Virus record (IMG/VR): IMGVR_UViG_3300019850_000004
Coordinates: 1 to 29,873 of that record
Strand: one strand, 5' to 3'
DNA: 29,873 nt
Origin: a virus
The translations under genes and the position numbers were made by a program. Of this stretch, positions 2,927 through 29,873 are shown in pieces; the first letter of the stretch is position 1, and each line of letters opens with the position of its first letter. The notes below the pieces were generated by a model, which saw nothing but the letters and a program-made list of their open reading frames with translations, had not been told where the DNA came from and searched no databases.

Positions 2927-4174
2927 TTATTGTTGGATTTCAAAGGTCAGTCCATCGAAACCGGGGACTGCTTGAGGTCCTGTTGAAGAGCCGTCTCTTA
3001 GAGCGGGGGCGGATGTTTGGTCTGTATTCGGATTAACTCCGAACTTATCCAAGATAGAGGTAAACCTTGGGTCCGGACCACTATCTTCGAGAGCGTCGTC
3101 GTATAATCTAAGAGCTTCCTCAGGGTTCTTTCCCTGATTAACTGCCTCAGATAAGAACTGCTCTCTCTCCTCGGCCCTTTCGGCCTGATAGAGACGAAGC
3201 TCAAGCTTTAACTGAGCTGACTGTCTTGGGTCCTTAACAGACGCAGAAGCTTGGCGGGCCATTCCAATCTCAACGTTAGAGATTGCGCCCTTTAGTTTCT
3301 GTGTTTCGTCGAAGGCCTGAGATGTAGTCAGAGCGTCCAGAAGGTTCGCGGCTTCTACACGGGCTTGCTGTTCGGGAGAAGCAATTCCAGCGGCCACTGC
3401 TGCTTTATCTGCTGTCCGTCCTACTACGCCTGCTGGACCAAACTGTAGGTCCTCTGGAAGACTATTCACGATAGACAGGTTGTCTTGGGCACGGGTCGCT
3501 AGCTCTGAAGCTGTCTGTCTCCGGTCCCTGCTGTCTTCTTGGAATTTGGTCTTAGCCTTACCGTCAGCACTCGAATTGAATGACTGGAGTCCTCCAAGAG
3601 ATGTCTGCTGTACCCCACCTTTGTTCGATCCTTGAACTGCAATGATTTGACCATTAGCATCACGGAAAAACTGAGGTGCAGAGAAAGAGGCATCCCTAGA
3701 ACCAGTTGCGTTGCGTCTAGCGGTGGCTGCGTCTCTCGCCTCCTGAAGATCAAGAGAACGGTCTTGCTGTCCTAACCTACGGTCTGCGTTAGCTTGGTTC
3801 TGTGTGGTTACTTCATTCTGGAAAGCCTGCTGTTGTGCGGCCTGTTCACGAAGAAGGGCTTCTTGCTCTTTTCTCGCTTCTTCCTCTGCGGCTGAGGCTA
3901 ACGTATTTTCGAAAGCTGCGCCGCCTTGTCCGAGTGCGCTGGCAAATCCATTCTGTCCACCTGCAAACTGTGCTGCTGCATTCAGAAGCCCTTGCCTTTC
4001 GGCGGCGGTCTTGTCGCGAGCTATCAGTGTCTCAAAGAATGACCGTTGCTTGGGCAGGGCTGTCGGAGGTTGAAGTCCGACATCCGTTGCTGCTTGGTCT
4101 CTAAGTCTGTTCAGGGAGGCTGCGCCTGCGAGTGGTGCTGCTGAAGCAATTCCAGCATTAATACCAAATGGCAT
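2927..4174 (-). CDS. Internal virion / ejection-type protein (putative)
   Basis: A 415-residue protein starting at the ATG at 4174. I prefer this to an upstream in-frame start at 4204 because AAGGAG lies 6 nt before 4174 and overlaps the stop codon of the preceding gene. The N-terminus is Gly/Ala-rich (PFGINAGIASAAPLAGAASL). Residues about 80-160 form a long Ala/Gln/Glu/Arg-rich helix, probably coiled coil (AAEEEARKEQEALLREQAAQ). The C-terminal part is Pro/Gly-rich and less structured. Composition and place between two other ejection-type proteins suggest an internal core or DNA-translocation component. No enzymatic motif is seen. Confidence 0.65.
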   Translation of the reverse strand: MPFGINAGIASAAPLAGAASLNRLRDQAATDVGLQPPTALPKQRSFFETLIARDKTAAERQGLLNAAAQFAGGQNGFASALGQGGAAFENTLASAAEEEARKEQEALLREQAAQQQAFQNEVTTQNQANADRRLGQQDRSLDLQEARDAATARRNATGSRDASFSAPQFFRDANGQIIAVQGSNKGGVQQTSLGGLQSFNSSADGKAKTKFQEDSRDRRQTASELATRAQDNLSIVNSLPEDLQFGPAGVVGRTADKAAVAAGIASPEQQARVEAANLLDALTTSQAFDETQKLKGAISNVEIGMARQASASVKDPRQSAQLKLELRLYQAERAEEREQFLSEAVNQGKNPEEALRLYDDALEDSGPDPRFTSILDKFGVNPNTDQTSAPALRDGSSTGPQAVPGFDGLTFEIQQ

Positions 4175-4184
4175 AGTGTTCTCC

Positions 4185-5345
4185 TTAAGCTGCTTCTGAG
4201 ACAAGTTTCATGGTTACGCCAAGGCCTTCATAATCGACCTTGAATAATCCATCCTGAACTTCCAGATGTTTCTCGTGTTCAGTTCCAATAAGGTCCTGAG
4301 CCATGACGCCTTCATAAAGGTAGTTAGAAGGGTCGCCTTTGTAGCGGAACCTATAAATGTTGAGGCCAGTATCTTCGTCCGTACCAACCTGTTCGATATC
4401 AGTCTTTGCATTCTCATCAGAGAACAATCCAGCGGCTCCAGAGGCAAAGCCAAGGGCCTGTCCCAAGATACCAGAGCTTCCTCCACGGGAGGTCTGCTCC
4501 GAAAGGACCGTTGGAGGACCAATGATGCCGTTTGCAAGGCCAAGGTTTCTGAACTGGTCGTCTCGTCTGAGATTGAATAAGTCTCGGTTCTCGTTGAGGA
4601 TACCTTGTTCGTTCTGCTGGGCAAGTCCGCCGCCAGTGAACAAGATGTTCTGATTTTGGGCTGCAAGATTGTTGGCTGCTCCCAGTCCAGACAGACCGCT
4701 GCCAAATGCTCCAGACAACTGAGCGTTCGCTCCAAGCCTCTGGTTATTGACTGCGTTCTCTTGGGACAGTGAGCGGTTAAACAGGTCTTGTCTTACGCCT
4801 GCTGAGATGTCAGCAATTCTGTCATCAGCGCCGCGCTGAAGGATGGCCTCTTGAACTCCCGTTCTCGAAGAGCCCCGGTTGCCCGTGTTTGATGCAGCTC
4901 GATCAAGGCGCGGTAAAGCCCCCTCGGTGAGACTACGGACTGTATCCCTTGATGCTGCGCCTACCAAGGCATCTGCGTTAGAGCCTGTGGATGCTGCGAG
5001 GGCGCGATCAAAAGGACCGGAACCAGACAGGTCGTTCAGGATACCCTGAGCGTTACTGCCAAAATTTGAACCTGCCTCCAGATTTCCCAGAGACGCATTG
5101 ATTGCTCTTGATGCGGAGGCTGCTCCGGGTCCAAGCGCGAAGTTGCGTCCGGCGTCGATGCCTTCTTGCTGGGTTTGGTTTAGGCGGGCAAATAGTTGTC
5201 CTTGGAAAGGACCTGTGGCGTTAGCTGAATTTAGAGCACCGATAGCGCCATTTCTTAGAGTATCCAAGAAAGGCTGCTGAGATGGGTCTACAAAAGACTG
5301 GCTGCTCTGACGTGCTGGACCACCAAATAGTTTTGAAAAGATCAT
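4185..5345 (-). CDS. Ejection-type structural protein with C-terminal peptidase S74 (intramolecular chaperone) domain
   Basis: 386 residues. The first 300 are Gly/Ala/Asn/Gln-rich and low in complexity, like DNA-transfer proteins of P22-type and marine podophages. The C-terminus has a recognisable S74 signature: FSDENAKTDIEQVG, then GLNIYRFRYKG and EGVMAQDL. Ser309 and Lys314 have the five-residue spacing of the Ser-Lys dyad that releases S74 chaperone domains in endosialidase tailspikes and MyRF. Only 73 residues follow the dyad, shorter than many tailspike versions. Family knowledge says the domain drives trimerisation and then cuts itself off; whether it does so on this protein is untested. 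AAAAGG precedes the ATG. Confidence 0.75.
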   Translation of the reverse strand: MIFSKLFGGPARQSSQSFVDPSQQPFLDTLRNGAIGALNSANATGPFQGQLFARLNQTQQEGIDAGRNFALGPGAASASRAINASLGNLEAGSNFGSNAQGILNDLSGSGPFDRALAASTGSNADALVGAASRDTVRSLTEGALPRLDRAASNTGNRGSSRTGVQEAILQRGADDRIADISAGVRQDLFNRSLSQENAVNNQRLGANAQLSGAFGSGLSGLGAANNLAAQNQNILFTGGGLAQQNEQGILNENRDLFNLRRDDQFRNLGLANGIIGPPTVLSEQTSRGGSSGILGQALGFASGAAGLFSDENAKTDIEQVGTDEDTGLNIYRFRYKGDPSNYLYEGVMAQDLIGTEHEKHLEVQDGLFKVDYEGLGVTMKLVSEAA

Positions 5346-5346
5346 G

Positions 5347-5730
5347 TTACACCTTTTGTTTTTGGGGACGAAAGTATCCGAACTGTTCTATTAGTACGCC
5401 GTAAACTCTTACGCCTGCTACAAGACAATTCCGGAGGAGGAATGGGACGCCTTCGTCCTTTAATGCGCCATGGAAGATGCCGTCGATAACTCTCCGAGAG
5501 ATATCTCTTCGGTACTTAAGGGCGGCGTCGTGGATGATTACAGACTGGATGTAACGTGGATCAGTCCGTGGGAAGAATAAAGTCAATGGAAAGGGTACAG
5601 AAGCACCATCTGTTGCCATGCCAGCAGGAGCAACAACTGTTCCTCTCTTTCCAGCATCATAAACAAACTTACGCTTCAGCTCCCACTCTTTTGAGTTGGC
5701 GGGTTCTAGCCAAACCGTGCCCTTAAACAT
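5347..5730 (-). CDS. DUF1353 family protein
   Basis: 127 residues. It carries the hallmarks of DUF1353: a strand ending in MATDGASVP (about residues 38-46), a Pro/Phe-rich turn, then the helix IQSVIIHDAALK with a conserved His-Asp pair, and a Tyr/Phe-rich C-terminus. Proteins of this family are common in phage tail and lysis regions, and their biochemical function is not established. AGGAGC precedes the ATG by 7 nt. Only a short gap separates it from the S74-domain gene, so the two are likely co-translated from one late transcript. Confidence 0.8.
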   Translation of the reverse strand: MFKGTVWLEPANSKEWELKRKFVYDAGKRGTVVAPAGMATDGASVPFPLTLFFPRTDPRYIQSVIIHDAALKYRRDISRRVIDGIFHGALKDEGVPFLLRNCLVAGVRVYGVLIEQFGYFRPQKQKV

Positions 5731-5733
5731 CTA

Positions 5734-6315
5734 TTATGCTCCTGTGAAGGTCTGAATTAAGTTATTGGCACTATCCGATAGAGCTGACATGTATGCAGGG
5801 ATAGTTTCCACAGGGATAACCAATAAATCTGCGTAAGCTTTAGCCACCATTCCGTCGATATTAGACGAGGCGATGGCTAGTCCATCAGCCTTAGCAAGCT
5901 GAATGCTAACGAGCTGTTCAACTGTCTCACCAAATCCTCTACTATCTACTTCTGCCTGAAGAATTGCTACGTCGGAAGCGGAGTGTTGGCCTGAACTGAT
6001 CCTTCGAGCCCTAAGCTCTTTTGAAGTCCATGATGCGGCTTCTAAATAGTCAGGATTTCCAGCAATATCAAACCGAGTAGAAGTAGCGAACTCAGTTACA
6101 GACTTTATGGCGTCTTCTCTCGCCATAGTTTCAATTGCGCCATTAATAAGACTTTGAATTTGGGCGTGCTCGGACGTGTTGGGCTCATGGTCGAAATGAA
6201 CAATAACGTCCTGACTGTCAATAGACACCCCATCGAAAACTATTCCAGCGCTTTCGAGAAGTCGGTGGACGGTTGAAGACTTTAGCTTCACTGGTGCGGT
6301 ATAGGTATGTTTCAT
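5734..6315 (-). CDS. Hypothetical protein in tail-fibre cassette
   Basis: 193 residues, soluble, mixed alpha/beta by appearance. The start directly abuts the stop of the previous gene (TAGATG), with AGAAGG upstream. The first 60 residues look beta-rich (VKLKSSTVHRLLESAGIVFDG, VIVHFDHEP). The rest is helical, ending in an amphipathic helix (MSALSDSANNLIQTFTG). No family is recognised. It lies between fibre-like proteins and DUF1353, so a fibre-associated or assembly role is possible; this is inference from position only. Confidence 0.65.
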   Translation of the reverse strand: MKHTYTAPVKLKSSTVHRLLESAGIVFDGVSIDSQDVIVHFDHEPNTSEHAQIQSLINGAIETMAREDAIKSVTEFATSTRFDIAGNPDYLEAASWTSKELRARRISSGQHSASDVAILQAEVDSRGFGETVEQLVSIQLAKADGLAIASSNIDGMVAKAYADLLVIPVETIPAYMSALSDSANNLIQTFTGA

Positions 6316-6960
6316 CTAACTAACCTTCTTAGCCGTAATGATTGCCGAGATAAGAGAAGCTTCCGTTCCGCCCGCGTTAGGAGCGAAGTCAATATCAATC
6401 GTGTTGTTTCCAGACAGGGTTTCTCGAAATACTCTGGTTGCCGGAAACTTCTGATTGGTTCCTGTTGTTAGGAATGCGCCAGCGCTGTCTTGTGGTTCCT
6501 GCTCATGAGGAACATCCATAGGTGCTCCATTAAGATTTACGTTAGAAACAAAGTCGCTACCTGTGGCGTCAAGGTTCCACATATAGTGAACGATGATCTC
6601 GTAATCTCCGGGAACGAAGTTCTCTGTTAGAGACAAATAAGTTGTAGGTGCGGTAGCTGTTGAAGTCGAAACGTCAGGGTTCGTGGGGTCCGTTCCTCTT
6701 TCAGCCGAATAAGTAGTAGGACTTGGGAAAGATAAAGTGACAACATCAGTAACTCCTGAGGTAAGATTAAACTCAAGATCAAATGTACCATCAAGGTTGT
6801 CTGTTGCTGACACGTTATCCAGACCAACAATTCCAAAGCTGTCGGCGAAGTTCTGTGCCGTCATTCTTTCGACCGTTGTATCGGTCATCACTGTAAGGAA
6901 CTCAGAAGGGAGAATAGGCGTGGTACGTAAAGGTGTCTGGTTTAGACGAATGTCTGCCAT
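6316..6960 (-). CDS. Putative tail fibre-like / virion decoration protein
   Basis: 214 residues, strongly beta-rich, with many Thr, Asn, Gly and Asp and no long helices, as expected for a fibre or receptor-binding type protein. The N-terminus (RLNQTPLRTTPILPSEFLTV) is like anchor segments of small fibre proteins. The C-terminal 120 residues could form a jelly-roll or lectin-like domain (VPGDYEIIVHYMWNLD and NNTIDIDFAPNAGG). AGGAGG stands 5 nt before the ATG. It follows a 75-aa protein with a fibre-type N-terminal motif. The specific ligand or fold cannot be told from sequence alone. Confidence 0.6.
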   Translation of the reverse strand: MADIRLNQTPLRTTPILPSEFLTVMTDTTVERMTAQNFADSFGIVGLDNVSATDNLDGTFDLEFNLTSGVTDVVTLSFPSPTTYSAERGTDPTNPDVSTSTATAPTTYLSLTENFVPGDYEIIVHYMWNLDATGSDFVSNVNLNGAPMDVPHEQEPQDSAGAFLTTGTNQKFPATRVFRETLSGNNTIDIDFAPNAGGTEASLISAIITAKKVS

Positions 6961-8446: not shown

Positions 8447-10093
8447 CTATCCTCTAAGTCCTTGGGAAATTACGTCGATGTCTAAACCAGAGAACCAGAA
8501 GTCCTCAGGCTCGTCTACCTGAAGACGGACGGTTAAATATCTACCGCCTTTCCTGAAGTCGATCTTAGTTTGGGTTTCTGGATCAAACGGGATTGGGGCT
8601 ATAACAGTAGGATTATCCCAAGCATAAAGAGATGAGCCAAACGTAAAGTTAAGGATGGCATCATTAAATGCTCTTGCCTGCGGGAACGCTGACAGAACCT
8701 CTTTGTACTCACGAGTTTGTTTTCCTACCTCGTCAAGATCAATTCCTACCCTCTCGACAAATGCAGGAGGGACGACTGCTGTATCTAGCGGCCTACTGAC
8801 TACCGATCCTTCGCCAATTACGTCATAAGCATAGATAGCATTGTTCAGTGGAAGATCGATAGCGTTAAGGTCTTCCCTCTTGATGAGAAAAAGTGCCGTT
8901 CTTAAGCCATCATCTGCACCATTCCAAGAGCCACCAGTCTGGTTCCAAGGATCGGTTACATTGTCCCAAGAGACTACATCAGCTAACACAAGTTCTGCTG
9001 ATCCAACAATCGCTGGCATGTCTACAAAAGACCACGTTCCGTTCTTGATGTTATAGACCGCTGCACGATTAGGGAAGTCTCCTCCATGCCATGTCGCATC
9101 TGCGTCGTTTGATACGTAAAGGAACATGACCTCATCTAAGATTGGGTTTCGGATAACTTTGAAGTTGTTCTTCTTAGACTTGTTGATGTTCGAGAAGATA
9201 AACTCTCTGTTCGAACTATCTCCGTTCTCGTCCTCAAGGATAGACCTCTTATTGATGCCGTCTGTAGTGTAGATGTCGTGCTCACCAAATACATAGTGGA
9301 TGCCATCGATTTGGATGACACAGTTAGTGGAGATACATCCATCGTCATCATATAGACGATCAAAAGTAAATACGAAGTCATCGTTGGAGGGCCTCATGAC
9401 CCAGACTTCTGAATTTGAATAGACTAAGAACCTGTCCTTAAGAGGCCACCCATCTACAATGGAGCCCTGCATATCAGGGAGAGGATTTGATCCCGCAGAG
9501 TTTGTGGTGCTGTCGATAGCATAGTCGTTAGGAGGCAGTCCGTCGCCTCTAACTACGTCCGACCACCTTACTGTCGTCGGTAAGTCTGTTCCACCAATCT
9601 GGTTGTCCAAGAAAATCAAGTGGTCCCGGAAGGATCGAATTACTCCGGCCCTATCATTAGCGTCCCAGTTAAAGTCTGTGAGAGGCTGGAAGGTGTTACC
9701 ACCTCTAGTCAAGACATAAGGGACATCCGTTCTTCGATTAACATATGCACAGTCATCTAGGACTGTCCCACTGAAAGGGTCAATCTCCGTTGTGTTTGGA
9801 GAGAAGCTTACAGGGGTCCTGTCGATATGACCTGCACGGAATGTAAACATCCTGCCATCGTCGTTTGTGTAAACAATGAAGTCCGCTCCAGAGGAGGGAC
9901 GCACCCCGAATGCAAAAGCAGGATCGTTATTGAGAAATGTGTTTACGGTTCTGAAACCCGGAGAGCGTCTCACTCGACCGTTCTCAAACCTCACGTTAGA
10001 GGCGTTGGACCAGCCCGTTAGAGGGAGGTTATATGGTCCGACATCCTTAAAGACGCCGTTGCGTCCAAGTCCCTTGATTGGGAGGATAGCCAT
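8447..10093 (-). CDS. Tail nozzle / stabilisation-type protein (T7 gp12- or P22 gp10-like role)
   Basis: 548 residues, beta-rich. The start ILPIKGLGRNGVFKDVGPYN, followed by LPLTGWSNASNVRFENGRV and RRSPGFRTV, has the layout of podovirus nozzle proteins, in which a short strand is followed by 'N/V-x-x-E-x-G-x-x-R-R-x-P-G'. Further blade-like repeats with Trp and Gly-Asp turns fit a beta-propeller-type nozzle (KDRFLVYSNSEVWVMRPSND; IDGIHYVFGEHDIYTTDGIN). The gene starts 14 nt after the predicted start point of a phage promoter, with AGGAG inside that short leader, so strong late expression is expected. The role assignment rests on general resemblance, not a close match I can name. Confidence 0.7.
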   Translation of the reverse strand: MAILPIKGLGRNGVFKDVGPYNLPLTGWSNASNVRFENGRVRRSPGFRTVNTFLNNDPAFAFGVRPSSGADFIVYTNDDGRMFTFRAGHIDRTPVSFSPNTTEIDPFSGTVLDDCAYVNRRTDVPYVLTRGGNTFQPLTDFNWDANDRAGVIRSFRDHLIFLDNQIGGTDLPTTVRWSDVVRGDGLPPNDYAIDSTTNSAGSNPLPDMQGSIVDGWPLKDRFLVYSNSEVWVMRPSNDDFVFTFDRLYDDDGCISTNCVIQIDGIHYVFGEHDIYTTDGINKRSILEDENGDSSNREFIFSNINKSKKNNFKVIRNPILDEVMFLYVSNDADATWHGGDFPNRAAVYNIKNGTWSFVDMPAIVGSAELVLADVVSWDNVTDPWNQTGGSWNGADDGLRTALFLIKREDLNAIDLPLNNAIYAYDVIGEGSVVSRPLDTAVVPPAFVERVGIDLDEVGKQTREYKEVLSAFPQARAFNDAILNFTFGSSLYAWDNPTVIAPIPFDPETQTKIDFRKGGRYLTVRLQVDEPEDFWFSGLDIDVISQGLRG

Positions 10094-10313
10094 AGGTATC
10101 TCCTCTCTATATGTGTCACTCTGTTTATAATGGAGCGGATGGCCCGCCTATTCGGCTTCGAAGCAGTGTCGCGACCACCGTCTTACACGCATTAAGACCT
10201 CCGCATAATTAAGACCCCTACCATCAGAATAGACCGGCTACTTCTGGCAGTCTCGTTAATTCGAGCAGCGGATGGATCACTGGAACAAGTCACAGGAGAG
10301 CCGGGTCCGGGGT
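10094..10313. other. Gene-free interval with short repeats and a hairpin
   Basis: There is no convincing gene in this 220-base gap. Apart from the promoter it holds two near-copies of a short unit on the plus strand (CGCATTAAGACC at about 10180-10191, and CGCATAATTAAGACCCC starting at 10202). It also has a hairpin at about 10225-10246 in which CAGAATAG pairs with CTA-c-TTCTG. No uridine run follows the hairpin, so it is not an obvious terminator. Confidence 0.5.
10101..10125 (-). promoter_or_regulatory. Phage RNA polymerase promoter-like site before the nozzle gene
   Basis: The plus strand carries CTATATGTGTCACTCTGTT within a 25-base block that is repeated exactly at 13317-13341. Read on the minus strand, TGACACATATAGAGAGGA lines up with the T7 promoter core CGACTCACTATAGGGAGA, with TATA at -4 to -1 and a G start at about 10107. 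This leaves a 14-nt leader containing AGGAG before the ATG at 10093. The phage encodes its own T7-type polymerase, so this is the natural candidate for its recognition site. Confidence 0.85.
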
Positions 10314-13316: not shown

Positions 13317-13341
13317 TCCTCTCTATATGTGTCACTCTGTT
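13317..13341 (-). promoter_or_regulatory. Phage RNA polymerase promoter-like site for the late region
   Basis: This is an exact 25-base copy of the site at 10101-10125. The transcript start would be the G at about 13323, heading left. It sits just downstream of an intrinsic terminator (13369-13400) that closes the accessory-gene block. The terminator-promoter order supports its role as the main switch into the tail genes. Confidence 0.85.
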
Positions 13342-13368: not shown

Positions 13369-13400
13369 TAACAAGAGAAACCCCGGACGATGCCGGGGCT
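13369..13400 (-). terminator. Intrinsic terminator after the accessory gene block
   Basis: On the minus strand the stem CCCCGG-CATCGT-CCGGGG (13381-13398) is followed by TTTCTCTTGTT. The 5' side is AAAG, and T-rich sequence also follows on the plus strand, so it may work in both directions. It lies about 140 bases past the stop of the 134-aa gene at 13542, ending that transcript before the phage promoter at 13323. Confidence 0.8.
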
Positions 13401-13541
13401 TTGGTTTGGGTGTTGTGATGTGGTGATAAAGGCTAGGATAACCACCGCATTGTGGTATCTAAGACACAGTAGAACACGATGACCTTGAGGACTAAGTGTG
13501 CGATCTTGGTGCGTCTTGAATAGGCGAGGGTGAGTGCATCC

Positions 13542-15445: not shown

Positions 15446-15478
15446 AAAAATAGCCCCTCCCAGAGGTACGGGAGAGGC
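15446..15478 (-). terminator. Intrinsic terminator after the RNA ligase region
   Basis: On the minus strand the nine-pair stem GCCTCTCCC / GGGAGGGGC (one G-U pair, eight-base loop, 15453-15478) is followed by TATTTTT. It starts 7 bases beyond the stop codon at 15485. T-rich sequence on the other side means it could also stop plus-strand transcription. Confidence 0.9.
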
Positions 15479-15484
15479 TTTTGT

Positions 15485-18560: not shown

Positions 18561-18870
18561 CTGCTTCCTCCATGAACTGAAGTCCTTTCTTTGTGGGACG
18601 CCACTCTCTTCCCCAAGACCTATCTGGTCTCCTCAGGGTTATGAGCCGCATCTCACAGGCAAGTGCTACTTCAAAGGCATAGCCCTCGTTCGTTACAAAG
18701 CGAGAGGCAACGGTGAAAGGACTTAAGTAAGCCCTTGTCACCACCTTATGAAGCCTAGTGAGTGTCGGCCCAGGAATTTCCGATAGCGTAATCCGCTTCG
18801 ACTGGGGACCGGAACTCGAAGAACTCGCCTGCCTTGAGAGCTTGCGCTTTACAGACTTCTCCGACTTCAT
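18553..18870 (-). CDS. Small winged-helix-like protein overlapping the polymerase end
   Basis: 105 residues from an ATG at 18870 that lies inside the DNA polymerase gene in another frame, with AAGGA 8 nt upstream. The first 35 residues are basic and Ser-rich (SRQASSSSSGPQSKR), as expected of overprinted sequence. From about residue 36 it looks like a winged helix: TLTRLHKVVTRAYLSPFTVA, FEVALACEMRLITLRR and WRPTKKGLQFMEE. A start nearer the end of the polymerase gene cannot be ruled out, but no better ribosome site is visible. The role may be DNA binding, by inference. Confidence 0.6.
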   Translation of the reverse strand: MKSEKSVKRKLSRQASSSSSGPQSKRITLSEIPGPTLTRLHKVVTRAYLSPFTVASRFVTNEGYAFEVALACEMRLITLRRPDRSWGREWRPTKKGLQFMEEADV

Positions 18871-21280
18871 CAGCTATTTCCTTTCTGCATCCAATCTGCA
18901 ACTCATCGTGGACCCATGCACATATAACAAAGTCCGGCTCTTCGCCGTCCACTGTTACCCATCGTCCATCTGCTGTACCGAGGCCGGGCTTATACCCTCT
19001 ACGGACAAGCTCATCAAAGACCATAACCATCCACATCTTACACAAGACAGCGCCAGAGGACTGGAGCATCGTGTTAAGGGCAGAGTGCATGGACCTAACG
19101 TGAAGTTCTCGACCATCAAGACCTGATAGCCAAAGCCTCCCGTCCCTTTCCTCTCTAACAATAAGAGATTTATCGAGGGCGGATAGTTTTCTCCACTCCG
19201 GCATCTTCTTGACTTGATCAGCATACCACTGGTCAGCGTTGGCTCTGGCTTGTCCCTTCTTCATTCCCTTAGCTGAAACTAAGTTGTTGAAGAGTTCTGC
19301 CTTCTTCGCCATCAAAGATTTGGCCTTCTTGCGGAACTTACGGACACCTGCTCCATCGTGAGTAAGCTTCTTAAGAGCCGGAAGAGACTTCAGGAAGCGA
19401 GACTTGAGCCTCTTACCAGTAACAATGGTTGCAATGAGAACATCTGTAGCTGTCCGGTTCTGCTTCTCTAACATCCATCGAACGGTGGAAGCTACTTTAC
19501 TGGCACAACATTCTTCTATCTCTTCGTCTGTTAGAGGCCGGTGAGCTGTGAAGATATTACCTATCTTCTCGTCTCCAGCACCGTATAGGAAGGCGTAGAT
19601 AAAGGTCTTTGCGATCTTATTTCTTGCCGTGTTGTGCCATGGATCGTGTTCGTCTTTCTCTGTCCCTTCAGGAACAAGACCAAGGGCGATAACATTAGCC
19701 CAGTGGATATCTCCTTCTAGGATTTGCTTGAGATAAGCTCCACCATCGTATTTGGCCATAAAGTGGCCAAGGCAACGAAGCTCAAGACCACTAAGGTCTG
19801 AACCAAGAAGGACCCAACCAGCAACAGTACCAAATAGTTCTCGACATTCTTTTCCGTAAGGAACCTTGTCGTCTGCTGCTGGGACTTGTCCGATGTTAGG
19901 GTAGTTGTGGCTTGCTCTCCCTGTAACTGTTCCGTTGACATTGTATGATCCTCTGATAAAGCCATCGTTGACACAGTCGAGCCAAGCCTTACCGCTTGAG
20001 CTTTCTCCGAGCTGTCCAATACGCTTGCTGAGCATGAAGTATGTAGCAAGGTCAGCACATTCGGGTATATGTTCGAGTGCGGATAATGTCTTATCATCGA
20101 CTTCTGGCTTCCCAGACTTGGTGAAAGAGGTGGGTATCCAGTTATACTGTGCCTTGAGGCGGTTTGCGATATCGTCGCGGCTCCCCGGAGAGAACGTAAC
20201 GTACTTGATAGGAGTGAAAGGACACCCTTCGGTGACTGTCTCCTTAGGAGGCCCGACATATGGTTTAAGTTCCTTCCCTGTTTTCTCAGAGAACCTTCTG
20301 ACAGTGATTTCTCTAGGTACTGGACAATCATCTGGAAGGGCTACCTTCTTTGACATGGTCTTAGCAGGTATCTGTACCTTACCAAGTCCGGTATCGTCTA
20401 AGCCCTTCTTAGGTGCCCACCATGAACCAAAGCTCTCTATAAGGCTCACTTCGAGAGACGATCTTCGGACTGCCATCTCTCCATGTAGTTTCTCTGCATC
20501 CTCCACATTGAACTTGAAACCACTTCTCTCGATGTGCTCACACACTTCTGTGGCTCTGTATTCAAGCAGCATTGCTTTACGGGCCAGCTTCTTGTCTCTT
20601 AGCTTGTGCCATAAAGCGGTGGATACCTCAACGTCCTGATCACAGTATTCCTGCATCTCCGGACACCATTCAGCGAAAGGTTCAGTCTCCAAACCAAAGT
20701 GACGAAGAGCAGCTCCTAGAACAAATTCCTCGTTACCTCCTTTGAACTCAAAGTCGCCTGCTGAGAGGATAAACTTTGCACCCTCAATCGTAAGCTCAGG
20801 GAAAAGTCCGTGTGCTCTGAGTGCATTATAAGAGTGCAGGGGAAGGTCCATGTACTCGCCCTTGAAGACACCGAGACGATATCCCCAAGCATTAAGAGAG
20901 TGCTTACCAAAGGCCTTTCCGGGTAGCCTCTTCTTACGCATAAGCATGGCGTCGATAGCATTGATATCAGGATATAGAAGTCTTGATAGGATGAAGGTGT
21001 CCTGAAGTGACTGATCAGGTCTGAGCTGGAAACCGAATAGCTTCCTAAGGACAGGAACGTCGAACTTTACGATGTTGTGTCCAATGATCTCTGAAGCACC
21101 TTTGAGAAGCTCCATGGCATCTTTAATGTCGCCGTCCTTGCGACTATACGAGTTGTCCGTGAACGAGCCAATCTGTGCGTTAGCTGCGTCCGGGTCTTTT
21201 AGGCAGATTGAATGTGCGACTGTTGATTGGTCATAGAAGCCATTCGTTTCAATGTCGAATACTAGCCGGTCATGCGTCAT
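18755..21280 (-). CDS. Family A DNA polymerase with 3'-5' exonuclease (T7 gp5-like)
   Basis: 841 residues, longer than T7 gp5 (704). Exonuclease motifs: FDIETNG (Asp9, Glu11), IGHNIVKFD (Asp74) and YCDQDVE (Tyr212, Asp216). Polymerase motifs: A at GSDLSGLELR (Asp495), B or O-helix at RNKIAKTFIYAFLYG (Arg553, Lys558, Tyr562) and C at WVHDELQ (His791, Asp792, Glu793). The extra length includes segments at about residues 141-205 and 300-360, within and after the exonuclease domain, and around 645-700. All catalytic residues are present, so it should be active. The start overlaps the preceding small gene by 11 bases. Confidence 0.97.
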   Translation of the reverse strand: MTHDRLVFDIETNGFYDQSTVAHSICLKDPDAANAQIGSFTDNSYSRKDGDIKDAMELLKGASEIIGHNIVKFDVPVLRKLFGFQLRPDQSLQDTFILSRLLYPDINAIDAMLMRKKRLPGKAFGKHSLNAWGYRLGVFKGEYMDLPLHSYNALRAHGLFPELTIEGAKFILSAGDFEFKGGNEEFVLGAALRHFGLETEPFAEWCPEMQEYCDQDVEVSTALWHKLRDKKLARKAMLLEYRATEVCEHIERSGFKFNVEDAEKLHGEMAVRRSSLEVSLIESFGSWWAPKKGLDDTGLGKVQIPAKTMSKKVALPDDCPVPREITVRRFSEKTGKELKPYVGPPKETVTEGCPFTPIKYVTFSPGSRDDIANRLKAQYNWIPTSFTKSGKPEVDDKTLSALEHIPECADLATYFMLSKRIGQLGESSSGKAWLDCVNDGFIRGSYNVNGTVTGRASHNYPNIGQVPAADDKVPYGKECRELFGTVAGWVLLGSDLSGLELRCLGHFMAKYDGGAYLKQILEGDIHWANVIALGLVPEGTEKDEHDPWHNTARNKIAKTFIYAFLYGAGDEKIGNIFTAHRPLTDEEIEECCASKVASTVRWMLEKQNRTATDVLIATIVTGKRLKSRFLKSLPALKKLTHDGAGVRKFRKKAKSLMAKKAELFNNLVSAKGMKKGQARANADQWYADQVKKMPEWRKLSALDKSLIVREERDGRLWLSGLDGRELHVRSMHSALNTMLQSSGAVLCKMWMVMVFDELVRRGYKPGLGTADGRWVTVDGEEPDFVICAWVHDELQIGCRKEIADEVGEVCKAQALKAGEFFEFRSPVEADYAIGNSWADTH

Positions 21281-21556: not shown

Positions 21557-23371
21557 TTAGAAGTCTTCGGTCTCCTCGTCCTCTTCTACAGAGTGGGCGG
21601 GGAAGCCATTGTCGTCAAAGTCGTTGCTTTCAAAATCGGGCTCACTTTCTATAAGCCTTCCTGTCGGCTCGTCGTATCGAAGCCAACACGCTGTGCAACC
21701 ATCTTCTCCGGTGAAGCGGTTCTTAAGGATCACGATCTCTGTCCAGCTTCGTCGGACTGGATCACGTTTGTTCCTCTGGAGAGCAATAACGATGTCAGAT
21801 AGCTGGGAGATGGCTTGAGAGCCTCGTAGGTGGCTCAGGGTGATCTCCAGTCCCTCTTCGAAGCCTTTGTTACCGTCTGGCCTCTTAAGGTGAGACACAA
21901 CGATGATAGATACTCCTGTGGCCTCACATAGGTCACGAAGGCGGGTCATGGCGATGTCGAGAGCTTTACGCTCATCTGTGATATCAAGACCCGATATAAT
22001 GATGGAAATGTGATCAAGGATGATCACTTCGCACTTCTGAGCTACGGCCATAAACCTGATCTTGGCAAGGAGACCATCGAAGTCTTCGGAACCCCACTGC
22101 TTGTCGATGGAAATCTTCCCACCGTTGACAATCTCATCAAAGGCCTTCTGGGCCTCTTCTTGATCGAAGTCCTCTATCTGCTTCTTAGATTTGACGATCT
22201 TCTGGATATGCTCAGGAAGTCCCCTGAGAGCCCTCTGTATGTGGATACGCTTACCGAGGTGTAATCCGACCAGACCATCAATGGTGCGGCTCCACGACTG
22301 TTCTCGGTACACTAGGCCTATCTTGCGTTTCTGTTTATAGGCGAGGTCGTATGCCATCTCTGTAGCCACCGCAGATTTACCTACGCCAGTCCCAGCAGTC
22401 AGGGTCACAAGCTCTCCAGCACGAAGCCCCATGGTTACAGCAGTTACACCGTCCCAAGGATAAGGCCAAGCTTCAGCAGCCTCATAGTTGCTCCAGTCGT
22501 CCCGGAGGTCGCCCATGGTGACGATGCCCTCAGGCTTCCACTCACGAGCGTTGAAGATAGCTGAGATAAGCTCTGGATCGCGCTTGGCTAGGATCATGTC
22601 GTTCGCATCCTTCAGAGGAAGGTGAGCGATCTTCACGGTCATGTGGCAGGCAAGCTCCTGAGCCACCTCTTTAGCAGCCTCCTGTCCTTGTTCGTCCATA
22701 TCAAACATGAGGATGATCTCTTCGTAAAGAGAAAGATAGTCTAGGTTCTGGACAACATGCTTCAATGCGTTGCCAGCTCCTCCTCCAATAGACACCACAG
22801 GCCAGCGGTGGTCTTGAGCTTGAGACACGGCCATGGCATCGTATTCGCCCTCAGTGATGATAAGCTTCTTTCCTCCCTTGCCCCATAGGTGCTGTCCGAA
22901 GAGCTGAAGAGGCTCCTTAGGATTGTCTCCCTTAGCCATGCACATCTCTTTAGAGCGTTTGCGGAGCTTCTGAGCCACCACATCGTTGGACTTTATAGAG
23001 CGGTAAGGCATCACCACCGCTTCGAAGGTGTCTATCTTTCTGTTCGTCTCTGCATCCAGAAGGGAGGCTTCCCCTGTGGTTACACTGAACTTCTTCATGC
23101 TTTCTGCGGAGAGACCACGGGACTTTAAGCCAGTTGTCGGCACTTCCCCGTTGGTTACAAGAGGTATCTTGGTTTTGGTTTTAGACATACGTCCTTTACT
23201 CCGTCTTTTGATTTCAACAGTAGGGTTCCCGCTGTCACCTCCTCTTTTCTTCTGGCAAGAGTGGCAGTAGCTACCACCGTTCTGCCATAAGGTGAGGCAC
23301 CCATTGTGACCACAGTCTGGGCAATCGAGGTGCGTTTCAATGGGCTCCTCGTCGTTATCTATGCGCTCCAT
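21557..23371 (-). CDS. Primase-helicase (T7 gp4-like)
   Basis: 604 residues. The order is: zinc-binding domain with CPDC and CHSC (Cys17, Cys20, Cys36, Cys39); TOPRIM primase with LIITEGEYDAM (Glu174) and MFDMDEQG (Asp224, Asp226); linker; RecA-like helicase with Walker A TAGTGVGKSA (Lys332), Walker B EVIILDHIS (Asp453), SHLKRPDG (His494), and the H4 region LRGSQAISQLSDIVIALQRN. The acidic C-terminus ends in EETEDF, like the T7 tail that docks on the polymerase. An internal Met62 with an AAAGGA/GGAG context could start a helicase-only form, as Met64 does in T7. The ring helicase unwinds DNA and the primase makes primers. Confidence 0.96.
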   Translation of the reverse strand: MERIDNDEEPIETHLDCPDCGHNGCLTLWQNGGSYCHSCQKKRGGDSGNPTVEIKRRSKGRMSKTKTKIPLVTNGEVPTTGLKSRGLSAESMKKFSVTTGEASLLDAETNRKIDTFEAVVMPYRSIKSNDVVAQKLRKRSKEMCMAKGDNPKEPLQLFGQHLWGKGGKKLIITEGEYDAMAVSQAQDHRWPVVSIGGGAGNALKHVVQNLDYLSLYEEIILMFDMDEQGQEAAKEVAQELACHMTVKIAHLPLKDANDMILAKRDPELISAIFNAREWKPEGIVTMGDLRDDWSNYEAAEAWPYPWDGVTAVTMGLRAGELVTLTAGTGVGKSAVATEMAYDLAYKQKRKIGLVYREQSWSRTIDGLVGLHLGKRIHIQRALRGLPEHIQKIVKSKKQIEDFDQEEAQKAFDEIVNGGKISIDKQWGSEDFDGLLAKIRFMAVAQKCEVIILDHISIIISGLDITDERKALDIAMTRLRDLCEATGVSIIVVSHLKRPDGNKGFEEGLEITLSHLRGSQAISQLSDIVIALQRNKRDPVRRSWTEIVILKNRFTGEDGCTACWLRYDEPTGRLIESEPDFESNDFDDNGFPAHSVEEDEETEDF

Positions 23372-24555: not shown

Positions 24556-25024
24556 CCGGCACCTCCTTATCTGCATATACGAAGTTGTTCTTCTCACACC
24601 ACATAGCATAGGTGGTCTTAGAACCCTTGCGTATCTTAGATTTGCTCCGTGTGAATACGAAGCGGATATCGCTGTACGGAAGTTCTTTGGCGATAAGGAT
24701 ATGTTTCTGTCTATCTGCGACATCAAAGATACCCTTGCTCTCCACGACGAAGTGTTCCTTCCACCAGTCCTCAGAGAGGTACCAGTCCTCAGGTAGAGGC
24801 TGGACAGGTTCTCTGTCTCGTCGAAGGGTAAAGTCGTGTGTGTACTTAGCAACCCTAGAGGGGATTGTGTACTTAAGAGCAGCCGGTTCAAAAAGGAAAC
24901 CAACCCCACGGTCTGTGAGGTCGGCTCCTATTGTCTCTTCCAGACCAGAACGATACCCGTTTGCGATGGCGCGAGACTTAGCGTCTCTAAAGCCTTTCTT
25001 TCCGGGGTATATCTTTCCAGCCAT
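24539..25024 (-). CDS. Endonuclease I (T7 gp3-like Holliday junction resolvase)
   Basis: 161 residues. It aligns by eye with T7 gp3: YRSGLEETIG (catalytic Glu29), YTHDFTL (Asp64), VVESKGIFD (Glu95, Lys97), then DRQKHILIAKELPYSDIRFV and KGSKTTYAMWCEKN. This is the PD-(D/E)xK-type site that cuts branched DNA and helps degrade host DNA. The first 20 residues are basic, as in T7. The ATG overlaps the stop of the single-stranded DNA-binding protein (TAATG). Between Asp64 and Glu95 it is longer than T7 gp3, with a Trp-rich insert (EDWYLSEDWWKEH). Confidence 0.95.
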   Translation of the reverse strand: MAGKIYPGKKGFRDAKSRAIANGYRSGLEETIGADLTDRGVGFLFEPAALKYTIPSRVAKYTHDFTLRRDREPVQPLPEDWYLSEDWWKEHFVVESKGIFDVADRQKHILIAKELPYSDIRFVFTRSKSKIRKGSKTTYAMWCEKNNFVYADKEVPDDWFD

Positions 25025-25972: not shown

Positions 25973-28603
25973 TCAACAGAATGAGTATGTAGAGCGAAGG
26001 ATAGTTCGGATGTCGAAGTCACCCTTCGCCGGTGGTGGTAGAAGTCTCTGGCGTCCTTCTTCCGATAGTTGCTCCCATGCTTCGTCGTATAAGACCTGAA
26101 AGATATCATAGTCTTCATACATCTTGACCATAGCTTCACGGATTAGCCAGAAGAAACGTTCCGTGTCGCCAGCGTGGGTAGCAAAGCTGTCGTGGATCAT
26201 ACTGAAGTCTCTCATACCTTCTTCGAGAGCGTGCAGGACGATCCTCATCAAGTGCGCGGCATCCATGGAGTGGATTACATTAGGGGACACTGCGGATTTC
26301 TGTTTTCGAGCGTTGAGCTTTGGGAGTACTGAAGACCTCATTAGGAACGAGTGGTTCTTCCACACTCTTCCATCGTCTTCGTCATAGTCGTCCTGCTTAG
26401 CTACGTTCGGTATTGTTACGTGACGGTCATAGACCTTTATGTTAAATCTCTTGTTGTCGTAGGTGTTATACTTGTGGACCACGGGGAAACCTACGGGGGT
26501 CATCCAGTAGACACACTTTCCCTCTTGAGATAAGAGACGGGCTACATGCTTGAACCATGACATTCCGGTTGCAGCAGAGACAACTACCTCGTGGATAGCT
26601 ATCCAAATCTTCTTGGCGAGATATCCTACCGCACCAAACTGCGTGGTGTAGTCCTCAAAAGGGTGGGCATCTATCTGACCGTGAAGTACCTGAGTTGTCA
26701 GTGGGCGCATTAAGTCAGCCATGAGCTGGTCTTTGAAGCCGTATTCCTCTGAGCTATACCCATAGGTCATGACCTGCCTTTTGACGGTCTTTCGATCTAC
26801 TCCATGAGCAAGCCACATCTTCGCAAATAATCGTTCACCTGCTTCGCCGGTATGTCGTGATCCATCATTATGTTCAAGTTGTGCTGTTGCAGGGCGTTCG
26901 GCATCCTCTTTAACGCTATCATACACCCTGCTTGATACGGCTGCATATACATCTTGGGGGTCGGGGAGGTCGTGGAGGTTGACAAGTCTGGCATCTTGAG
27001 AGCTTCGTAAAGCTGCTGCATAATGTTGTAGCCCTGAGTTGGAGCCGTCCAGTGCAATTGGTTGATGAGAGATGAAACTGTTTCCTCTTTTGACATATCC
27101 TTCCCATTCGAAACATGCTGCGAGGAACTTGAAGGGTTTCTCTGCGAGTATCCATCCGGTGTTCCCGAAGGGGTCTCGTGCGTAGCTGCAAAGGAGGTCG
27201 CTATTGGACTGGACCCATAGCCACCGATCCTCAAGCTTTCTTTTATGTGCCCCATCGAACTCACCGCATCCGACAATGTGAAGAGCAAGCCAATACGCTC
27301 CGCGAGGTCCAAGGGCTTTTCCGTCTGCAAATTCAAGGAGAGCTGATACATAATCTTCTCGCTGGTGGTTGAAATGTGGAATGGGATAGACACGACCCCT
27401 GAAGTCAAGGTTGTGGGGTAGCCAGAACCGACCGTATTCTGCTAGGTCTTTAGCCTCCGAAATGTCTTTAGAGAAACTAGAGACACCTGTTCTAACTGCG
27501 TCATTAGCTGCTCGAACGGCGGCACTATCTCTAAGGTACGATATCTGTTGCTCCTTAGACAGAGCTTCGAAGTCCTCAGGCTTTGGGACCTCATCTACAA
27601 GGGAGGCCTTAGGGAGCTTATTGATCTCTCCTCCAAGATCAAGCTTCCATGCCCAGTCAATCGCTTCCAGTACCCGCTTGTTGATGCGGTATGGTGTAGC
27701 CTGTATAGCGTTGAGGGCGTCTAAGGCCTCCCTCATCGTTCCCTCGTCACCTGCGACCTTTAGCATTTGTTGCATCTTAGGATCATAGGCTCGTCTAACG
27801 AGAGGTGTTCTCAAGTTGGTCTCAGGTAGAAGGTAAGGGCCGTGTTCTTCAGCAGCGCCTTTCCATGGTGTTGGTGACACCACCATTGGTGAGAACATTG
27901 GACGCATCCAACGCTCAAGCTCATTGTTCTCCTTAAGCCACTCAAGGATTTCCTCGTCGAGGGATAGGTGAGTTACTTCGGTCTTGTTCTTTGTGTCCCA
28001 CTTCTTCTCTGGGAAGAAGATGTCTGTGTAGAATACTGAGTTTAAGATGACGGAACCGATACGGAGACGGGAGCCTTCATCCAGCTTTCCAGCTTCTCTC
28101 TTGAATTTAGATCGATTACGGACTTTCTTCTTAGGGTCAACCCTGTCTCCGAAGAGGCGGGTGTATAGCTTCGGGTCATCGCTCTCAAGACCGTTGTGAA
28201 GGGCTTCCATCTGAATGATGTCAGCGATCCTAACGGCAATGTTTAGGTAGTTAGTTCGGTCCCAATGGCCGAATGCCATGTTGAGGCCAATATAAGCGCA
28301 TTGGAAAAGCCCGCTTCTCTCTATGAGATTAAGCTCAGCTATACGTTGTCCGTTGCGGAGACCATCTCGTAGTCGGGCCAATTCTTTCTCAAGATGCTCA
28401 GCGGTGGCCGGAAGGGCGTTCTGAAGGAGCCTCTTGATAGGAGATGCCCCTAAGTGTTCGTCCCTCGCTGCCATGCTTTCGAGGCCCATGTCGAACCTGT
28501 CAGCGCCCACCTGAGCAGAAATCCTCTCTCGCTCTTCCTGTGCTTGGGTAAGCTCCTGTGTGGCGGCGCTTGTATATCTATATGTGTCATTCTGTTCAGA
28601 CAT
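25973..28603 (-). CDS. Single-subunit DNA-directed RNA polymerase (T7 gp1-like)
   Basis: 876 residues (T7: 883). Key regions are present: LDFRGRVYPIPHFN (residues 399-412), ALDGSNSGLQHY with Asp519 (T7 Asp537), DRKTVKRQVMTYGYS with Lys608 and Tyr616 (T7 Lys631, Tyr639), and NVIHSMDAAHL plus SMIHDSF with His804-Asp805 (T7 His811-Asp812). The C-terminus ends STYSFC where T7 ends SDFAFA. It should transcribe the leftward middle and late genes from the promoters found here. The first ATG has a poor ribosome site, yet similarity to the T7 N-terminal helices begins soon after, and no better start is seen. A phage promoter overlaps codons 3-11. Confidence 0.97.
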   Translation of the reverse strand: MSEQNDTYRYTSAATQELTQAQEERERISAQVGADRFDMGLESMAARDEHLGASPIKRLLQNALPATAEHLEKELARLRDGLRNGQRIAELNLIERSGLFQCAYIGLNMAFGHWDRTNYLNIAVRIADIIQMEALHNGLESDDPKLYTRLFGDRVDPKKKVRNRSKFKREAGKLDEGSRLRIGSVILNSVFYTDIFFPEKKWDTKNKTEVTHLSLDEEILEWLKENNELERWMRPMFSPMVVSPTPWKGAAEEHGPYLLPETNLRTPLVRRAYDPKMQQMLKVAGDEGTMREALDALNAIQATPYRINKRVLEAIDWAWKLDLGGEINKLPKASLVDEVPKPEDFEALSKEQQISYLRDSAAVRAANDAVRTGVSSFSKDISEAKDLAEYGRFWLPHNLDFRGRVYPIPHFNHQREDYVSALLEFADGKALGPRGAYWLALHIVGCGEFDGAHKRKLEDRWLWVQSNSDLLCSYARDPFGNTGWILAEKPFKFLAACFEWEGYVKRGNSFISHQPIALDGSNSGLQHYAAALRSSQDARLVNLHDLPDPQDVYAAVSSRVYDSVKEDAERPATAQLEHNDGSRHTGEAGERLFAKMWLAHGVDRKTVKRQVMTYGYSSEEYGFKDQLMADLMRPLTTQVLHGQIDAHPFEDYTTQFGAVGYLAKKIWIAIHEVVVSAATGMSWFKHVARLLSQEGKCVYWMTPVGFPVVHKYNTYDNKRFNIKVYDRHVTIPNVAKQDDYDEDDGRVWKNHSFLMRSSVLPKLNARKQKSAVSPNVIHSMDAAHLMRIVLHALEEGMRDFSMIHDSFATHAGDTERFFWLIREAMVKMYEDYDIFQVLYDEAWEQLSEEGRQRLLPPPAKGDFDIRTILRSTYSFC
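28572..28596 (-). promoter_or_regulatory. Phage promoter-like site inside the 5' end of the RNA polymerase gene
   Basis: The plus strand reads CTATATGTGTCATTCTGTT (28578-28596), differing at one position from the two other copies. The predicted start is the G at about 28578, inside codon 9 of the polymerase gene. Transcripts from it would lack the polymerase start codon and so would serve the genes downstream. The +2 to +6 bases differ from the other two copies. Confidence 0.75.
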
Positions 28604-28625: not shown

Positions 28626-28736
28626 TCAATTGACTAAGGAAGGATACGCATTGCAGGCTTGCAAGACAAGTAGAAGTGCTCCACAGCACACCATGAAGAT
28701 ACCATACTCTCGGATGAAGTCATCAGGATCGGGCAT
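28626..28736 (-). CDS. Very small putative membrane peptide (36 aa)
   Basis: A 36-codon frame whose ATG overlaps the previous stop (TAATG), with AAGGGA about 8 nt upstream. It begins with a short acidic part (MPDPDDFIREYG) and has one hydrophobic segment, IFMVCCGALLLVLQA. Its size makes it uncertain; it fills the gap before the RNA polymerase gene. Confidence 0.45.
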   Translation of the reverse strand: MPDPDDFIREYGIFMVCCGALLLVLQACNAYPSLVN

Positions 28737-28957
28737 TACCACAGTCCCTTATATTCTCGAACACCTTCATCGTCTCCAAAGTTGACGAAACTTACGACAG
28801 CCACCATATCCTTGGTGGACACCTGAGCCCACTGAAACTCTCCCACAGAAGATGCAGCACTTCGGGCCTCCTGAATGGTCTCATACGAGCCTTCGAAGTC
28901 TGCAACTCCTCCTATCGGGTAGTGCATCTGTCCTTTGAACACAAGATACTGTTTCAC
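28736..28957 (-). CDS. Small hypothetical protein (73 aa), GTG start
   Basis: The GTG at 28957 overlaps the TGA of the integrase gene and has AGAGGAG 7 nt upstream; an earlier in-frame ATG at 29017 lies well inside the integrase and lacks such a site. The product is beta-alpha by appearance (QYLVFKGQMHYPIGGVADFE; TIQEARSAASSVGEFQWAQV), acidic, without a membrane segment. It may act in early infection or in the lysogenic decision given its place between integrase and polymerase, but this is guesswork. Confidence 0.65.
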   Translation of the reverse strand: MKQYLVFKGQMHYPIGGVADFEGSYETIQEARSAASSVGEFQWAQVSTKDMVAVVSFVNFGDDEGVREYKGLW

Positions 28958-29799
28958 GATAATGCTCCTCTCACATGCTTCATTGCTGTCTCTAGAGTGG
29001 CCGGTGTTAGGTGGCAATATCTCATTGTGGTCTTGAGATGCTTGTGTCCAAGTAACTCCTTCACAACATGTATGTCAACACCTTTATTGTTCAGTATGGA
29101 CGCAAAGGTGTGCCGCAGGGCGTGGAAGGTGAACTCTTCGTCTTCTGACAGCCCCATCTCTTCCCTAGCCCAGTTCCAAGCATCATACATTCGATCACGA
29201 AACCTGTTCTCCCCTGTCGTCTCATAGTTCCAAGGGCAGTAGTCATGGAACAGTTCCACCGCATCCGGAGTAATTGGAATGCTCCTGTGGGTCCCGTTCT
29301 TCGTGTCTCTGAAGGTTACGACACCATCAACTACATCTGTCTTAGGATTTACCTTAAGTATCTCGCCTCTTCTAGCACCTGTCAGCAAGGCAAGCCTACA
29401 AAAGGCCGCAGTGGCATATCCCAGCTCTCTTGAGGGGTACTTCAAGAGGGTACTTATGAGCGTCTCTCGTTCCTCTGGGGACAGCCACCGCGACTTCGGG
29501 GCGCTTTCCTTCTGCCAATCGAAGGAAGGCACTTCATCCAAGTATCCGTTCTTTACGCAAGCTTGTAGAAACTTCGACATAGCGGACAGATATCTGTTTA
29601 TCGTTGAACCTGAGACCTCGCTCTCATAGAGGTGGTCGATCAAGGATCGGATGTCAGCGTAGTTTACCGTTGATACATCCTTCTGTTTCCCTAAGAAAGC
29701 TAAGGAGACTTCGAGGCGTGCGTACGGCATCTTCTGATCCTTGGCTCCACGCCAAAGGGAAGGTCCGAGTTCTCTGTATGCTTCCTCTAGGGTTTTCAT
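28954..29799 (-). CDS. int: Tyrosine-family site-specific integrase
   Basis: 281 residues from the ATG at 29799, with GGAG 6 nt upstream; a TTG at 29811 is in frame but less likely. The N-terminal half holds a SAM-like core-binding domain (SLAFLGKQKDVSTVNYADIR; INRYLSAMSKFLQACVKNGY). All catalytic residues are visible: Arg143 (LLTGARRGE), Lys167 (DTKNGTHRS), His226 and Arg229 (FHALRHTFA), His252 (LLGHKH) and Tyr261 (TTMRYCHLT). It should therefore be active in integrating the phage genome. Integrase upstream of RNA polymerase is known in some marine T7-like phages. I found no attachment site or tRNA fragment nearby. Confidence 0.96.
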   Translation of the reverse strand: MKTLEEAYRELGPSLWRGAKDQKMPYARLEVSLAFLGKQKDVSTVNYADIRSLIDHLYESEVSGSTINRYLSAMSKFLQACVKNGYLDEVPSFDWQKESAPKSRWLSPEERETLISTLLKYPSRELGYATAAFCRLALLTGARRGEILKVNPKTDVVDGVVTFRDTKNGTHRSIPITPDAVELFHDYCPWNYETTGENRFRDRMYDAWNWAREEMGLSEDEEFTFHALRHTFASILNNKGVDIHVVKELLGHKHLKTTMRYCHLTPATLETAMKHVRGALS

Positions 29800-29800
29800 A

Positions 29801-29873
29801 TTATACTCCAATCATAGAAGGTATCGTGCTGAGTAGCAAGACCAGTGCCAGAATACCCATCTCAACAATACAC
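29801..29873 (-). CDS. End of a small hydrophobic protein (partial at the right edge)
   Basis: The frame is open from the window edge to TAA at 29801-29803, giving CIVEMGILALVLLLSTIPSM and then IGV. The stop lies within the spacer between the integrase ribosome site and ATG. This is probably the C-terminus of a small membrane peptide; an internal ATG would give only 19 residues. Too little is seen to name it. Confidence 0.4.
   Translation of the reverse strand, partial: CIVEMGILALVLLLSTIPSMIGV

Follow-up and report, generated by a model that had tools for sequence, protein, structure and literature searches.

A promoter-like repeat within the first codons of a T7-type RNA polymerase gene on a metagenomic virus contig

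We found a promoter-like site that, as judged from the sequence and a structure model, very probably lies inside the coding sequence of a T7-type RNA polymerase (RNAP) gene, in the part encoding the disordered N-terminal tail of the protein. It is likely that this site is a promoter of the phage's own T7-type RNAP, located within codons 3–9 of the polymerase gene and driving the replication genes without full-length polymerase being made. A promoter inside an RNAP gene is already known from phage Syn5; what is new here is the position at the 5' end of the gene and the contrast with related loci, and no published case of a promoter within the opening codons of an RNAP gene was found in open-licence papers. 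The polymerase gene of T7-like phages determines how quickly an infection becomes committed, and in temperate-like members a promoter before this gene is thought to give positive feedback. Placing a promoter directly behind the start codon would be a minimal means of holding the polymerase low and host-set, yet driving the replication genes.

The virus fragment and its three-copy repeat

The window (the whole stretch of DNA that was analysed), a virus fragment of 29.9 kb from IMG/VR, carries its main genes on the minus strand. Read leftward, the gene order is integrase, two small ORFs, RNAP, gp2.5-like ssDNA-binding protein, endonuclease, primase/helicase, DNA polymerase A, exonuclease, dNMP kinase and probable virion genes. 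The run of RNAP, ssb, endonuclease, primase/helicase, DNA polymerase A and exonuclease on one strand is of the Autographiviridae type; no head genes or terminase were seen within the 29.9 kb fragment. The 876-aa ORF, which the first-pass annotation had taken for the phage's own RNA polymerase, is indeed a T7-type single-subunit enzyme: it matches the Pfam family RNA_pol (1.9e-88) and T7 RNAP in the PDB (5e-94), and the alignment includes the PF00940 catalytic domain with the invariant palm and finger residues. A stretch of this protein aligned with the T7 specificity loop (residues ~720–765) has an insertion of ~20 residues relative to T7. The features discussed below are:

28954–29811, minus strand: tyrosine integrase, upstream of RNAP
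28626–28736, minus strand: 36-aa ORF between a 93-aa ORF and the RNAP gene, ending 22 nt before the RNAP ATG
25973–28603, minus strand: T7-type RNA polymerase gene, 876 aa (Pfam RNA_pol), with an ATG at 28603 that has no Shine-Dalgarno sequence
28577–28595, minus strand: phage-RNAP promoter-like site nested in RNAP codons 3–9, one mismatch to the other two copies
28578, minus strand: putative transcription start, the G of TATAG as +1, placed by analogy to the promoters of T7 and SP6
21557–23371, minus strand: primase/helicase, a replication gene downstream of the nested site
18755–21280, minus strand: DNA polymerase A, a replication gene downstream of the nested site
13378–13401, minus strand: intrinsic-terminator-like hairpin, just before the site at 13322–13340
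13322–13340, minus strand: exact second copy of the site, in an intergenic region preceding late genes
10106–10124, minus strand: third copy of the site, exact, immediately before the structural gene 8447–10093

The 19-mer ACAGAGTGACACATATAGA is found exactly at 10106–10124 and 13322–13340, and its copy at 28577–28595, which reads ACAGAATGACACATATAGA, differs by one base; all three copies point leftward, and a search of the window allowing up to three mismatches returned no others. The first-pass annotation had described a 19-base core with one mismatch to two other leftward sites, and this description holds: 100 dinucleotide-preserving shuffles gave no match to the 19-mer with up to three mismatches, and by our own estimate one additional copy with no more than one mismatch would arise by chance at ~1e-5 per window. 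A general repeat search identified the 19-mer as the only three-member repeat family in the window.

The two intergenic copies are identical across 24 bases (..AGAGAGGA) and share the initial transcribed sequence GAGAGGA, which is absent from the nested copy (..AGATATAC); the latter agrees with them no further than the A that follows the presumed +1 G. Counted from the G of TATAG (28578) as +1, the mismatch of the nested copy falls at -12, and given this mismatch and the missing GAGAGGA the nested copy may be weak. At the copy next to the structural gene 8447–10093, the +1 region merges with the Shine-Dalgarno sequence of that gene.

The repeat is thus a conserved sequence of ~17–23 bp, in a single orientation and repeated ahead of genes. 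Its core GTGACACATATAGA resembles the SP6 promoter GTGACACTATAGA, with one extra base, and the motif CACATAT.GA is common to this core and to a four-copy repeat of the Bordetella phage vB_BbrP_BB8 (the closest isolate). Because of its placement, its resemblance to SP6 and the motif common with BB8, we read the 19-mer as a putative promoter of the phage's own T7-type polymerase, with +1 probably at G28578.

This evidence comes from one metagenomic contig without close relatives: no near-DNA relatives were found among isolate phages, and single-protein scans of viral contigs returned only two RNAP relatives (29–30% identity), with no relatives by DNA polymerase and none in bacterial genomes. The 15-mer GTGACACATATAGAG matched 33 stretches of other viral contigs, with one match each, which we estimate to be no excess over chance for a collection of that size. 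None of these 33 stretches encodes homologues of the tested window proteins; such homologues were found only in L004 and L005, both from the single-protein RNAP scan.

The start codon of the polymerase gene

In the ORF at 25973–28603 the nested 19-mer covers nucleotides 9–27, from the third base of codon 3 to the end of codon 9, and thus begins 8 bases past the start codon. The first-pass annotation was right to place it within the first codons of the polymerase, and slightly wide in extending it over codons 3–11. ATG 28603 is the only in-frame ATG, GTG or TTG upstream of codon 32, and between the presumed +1 and codon 32 there is no ATG, GTG or TTG in any frame, which also rules out that a frameshift or sequencing error hides a start after the site. 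The proposal that transcripts from the site lack the polymerase start codon is therefore upheld: since no start precedes codon 32, which lies beyond the invariant Glu26, RNA beginning at ~28578 should not encode full-length RNAP.

The N-terminus that starts at ATG 28603 agrees with the relatives and with the predicted structure. Glu26 is conserved in all 207 relatives aligned at that column of a profile alignment, and in an AlphaFold model of the RNAP residues 1–11 have pLDDT <50 and are followed by a continuous helix (residues 12–51). In one related locus (L047, 36% identity) the ATG likewise lies 75 nt before Glu26, there with a Shine-Dalgarno sequence. In contrast to nearly all other window genes checked, ATG 28603 has no Shine-Dalgarno sequence, and the mode of translation of the polymerase is in doubt. 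The small ORF in front (28626–28736) might provide translational coupling into this start. Its 36-aa product is hydrophobic, and its own ATG overlaps the stop codon of the preceding ORF (TAATG).

Polymerase loci of relatives and characterised phages

We collected 80 viral and 80 bacterial loci from a first RNAP alignment, and added viral loci from a closer alignment. Altogether 207 loci were anchored on Glu26, and 199 with enough upstream sequence were scanned for 19-mers recurring within one locus with at most one mismatch. With loci picked by RNAP similarity rather than at random, and start codons set by an automatic rule, a promoter-like repeat was found upstream of the chosen RNAP start in 68 out of 199 loci (59 distinct upstream regions), at a median distance of 38.5 nt from the start. 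Across all remaining RNAP coding sequence, which is far longer, the same scan gave only 10 repeats; repeats are thus strongly enriched upstream. Of the 68 loci, 44 also have a partner repeat near the RNAP stop (-30 to +150 nt). Two copies bracket the RNAP gene in, e.g., L046, L049, L051–L053 and L227, and in several bracketed loci the second copy lies across the RNAP stop codon or directly next to it.

A repeat overlaps the coding start in four loci, the window among them. The other three were rejected as comparable cases from the survey tables: L254 has an ambiguous start, and a downstream ATG would place its repeat upstream of the gene; L152 has a second repeat well upstream, and the overlap is probably due to chance; L168 has a single repeat partner, located upstream of the gene, and is probably due to chance as well. 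Judged from these tables, the window appears to be the only clear 5'-end case of a promoter-like repeat after the start codon. What would set the window apart from many relatives is thus where its start codon lies with respect to the repeat. No copy is found at the RNAP stop of the window, nor is there any other copy of the 19-mer between 28577 and 13340, so that the nested site is the only known candidate phage promoter ahead of the replication genes within the window.

Promoter-like sequences deeper in the RNAP gene were observed as well. In L142 (at 6603), L116 (at 4506) and L096 (at ~2065) such a sequence is located in the same variable RNAP loop, ~1.7 kb into the gene; the RNAPs of L116 and L096 are homologous to that of L142 (about 62–64% identity), and the mid-gene sequences of L142 and L116 match repeats of their own locus closely, that of L096 with mismatches. 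By sequence comparison these loci seem to form an additional mid-gene case beside Syn5. In L203–L205, whose RNAP is 38% identical to that of the window, a promoter-like GCCGCACTATAGC is found just before the RNAP start; this start is only 15 nt before the Glu26 codon, giving a very short N-terminus for the clade.

Among characterised phages, Syn5 has only two phage promoters, one of them inside the RNAP gene (PMC3950665, PMC6834552); we located this intragenic promoter (ATTGGGCACCCGTAA) at 4929 in the RNAP CDS (4120–6459), ~270 codons in. The window resembles Syn5 in having the candidate site after the start codon, within the RNAP ORF and on the same strand, in the position of a promoter whose RNA cannot encode full-length RNAP and enters the downstream genes (PMC3950665, PMC6834552). 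It differs in that the site is 8 bases after the start codon instead of ~270 codons into the gene, and in that the promoter sequence of Syn5 is unrelated to the 19-mer. LUZ100, a temperate-like Pseudomonas T7-like phage, has the promoter phi1 upstream of the RNAP gene, with positive feedback proposed (PMC10134795). Like the window, it has its integrase gene upstream of RNAP and, at the RNAP 5' end, a phage promoter, in the window a candidate one (PMC10134795); phi1, however, precedes the RNAP gene, whereas in the window the start codon precedes the promoter-like site, which is therefore not placed as an autogenous promoter of the phi1 kind. Among isolates the closest RNAP is that of BB8 (32% by tblastn), which has its genes in the same order, integrase first, then RNAP and the replication genes as far as exonuclease, and a promoter-like repeat in four copies, with one before and one after RNAP. 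The upstream copy of BB8, however, lies outside the gene and starts 117 nt ahead of the RNAP ATG, and its copy just after RNAP has no counterpart in the window. KP34 also has a phage-RNAP initiation site within the RNAP gene (PMC6834552), but there it is weak, lies at the 3' end (PMC6834552), and is of a sequence class distinct from that of the strong KP34 promoters.

Proposed transcription scheme and alternatives

In the scheme that we favor, the first polymerase mRNA would be made by host RNA polymerase, probably by read-through out of the integrase operon; no convincing sigma-70 promoter was seen between integrase and RNAP. The phage polymerase would then initiate at ~28578 and transcribe leftward, first through the remaining part of its own gene, which would form a 2.6 kb leader of the phage-made RNA, and on into the replication genes. 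Having neither the AUG at 28603 nor any start before codon 32, this RNA should give no full-length polymerase. Where relatives have a promoter at this place but ahead of the start codon, phage RNA would carry the polymerase start and could feed back positively; in the window phage this positive feedback loop would be cut. Polymerase output would presumably be low, given the missing Shine-Dalgarno sequence and the lack of feedback, and interference of the nested site with the host-driven polymerase mRNA is possible. The residues encoded by the promoter would fall in the disordered N-terminal tail, allowing one DNA stretch to serve both roles. That the downstream replication genes would be switched on without more polymerase being made, as the first-pass annotation had suggested, is the best-fitting reading, with a published parallel in Syn5; it predicts RNA starts near 28578 that never encode the polymerase.

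If the start were misannotated and the polymerase began at GTG codon 32 or ATG codon 39, the site would be an ordinary autogenous promoter with positive feedback, as proposed for LUZ100; the missing Shine-Dalgarno sequence at ATG 28603, the weak purine-rich stretches ahead of codons 32 and 39, and the many relatives in which a promoter-like repeat shortly precedes the RNAP start all point this way. We consider this quite unlikely, because either start would cut the helix that begins at residue 12 in the model and drop Glu26, conserved in all 207 aligned relatives; moreover, the sequence from the site to codon 32 offers no start in any frame, and L047 begins at an equal distance from Glu26. On these grounds codons 32 and 39 were rejected as starts. 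It is also unlikely that the nested copy is an inactive relic, i.e. an ancestral promoter that turned coding when the start codon moved upstream and no longer works: the -12 mismatch and the loss of the conserved initial transcribed sequence would be expected of a relic, but 18 out of 19 bases are retained inside coding sequence, and the replication genes would be left without a known phage-polymerase promoter within the window.

T7 promoters can double as replication origins, and with just three copies of what is a putative promoter, the repeats could in principle be another signal, such as a replication signal or a binding site of a phage regulator. This is very unlikely, as the copies share a single orientation with the genes, stand in front of late genes and behind a terminator-like hairpin, are not palindromic, and combine the initiation motif TATAG with likeness to the SP6 and BB8 sequences.

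As for the origin of a nested promoter, we tentatively suggest that a self-amplifying circuit was rewired by a shift of the start codon to the upstream side of a promoter already in place, leaving the downstream genes driven without feedback and the promoter sequence tolerated as disordered tail. The window would add a 5'-end case to the little-studied promoters inside polymerase genes, and if the start codon did shift in this way, then together with Syn5 and the mid-gene sequences of L142, L096 and L116 it would imply that promoters have repeatedly become buried in the polymerase genes of T7-like phages.

Two more terminator-like hairpins were observed on the minus strand of the replication region, at 15452–15479 and 24896–24928.
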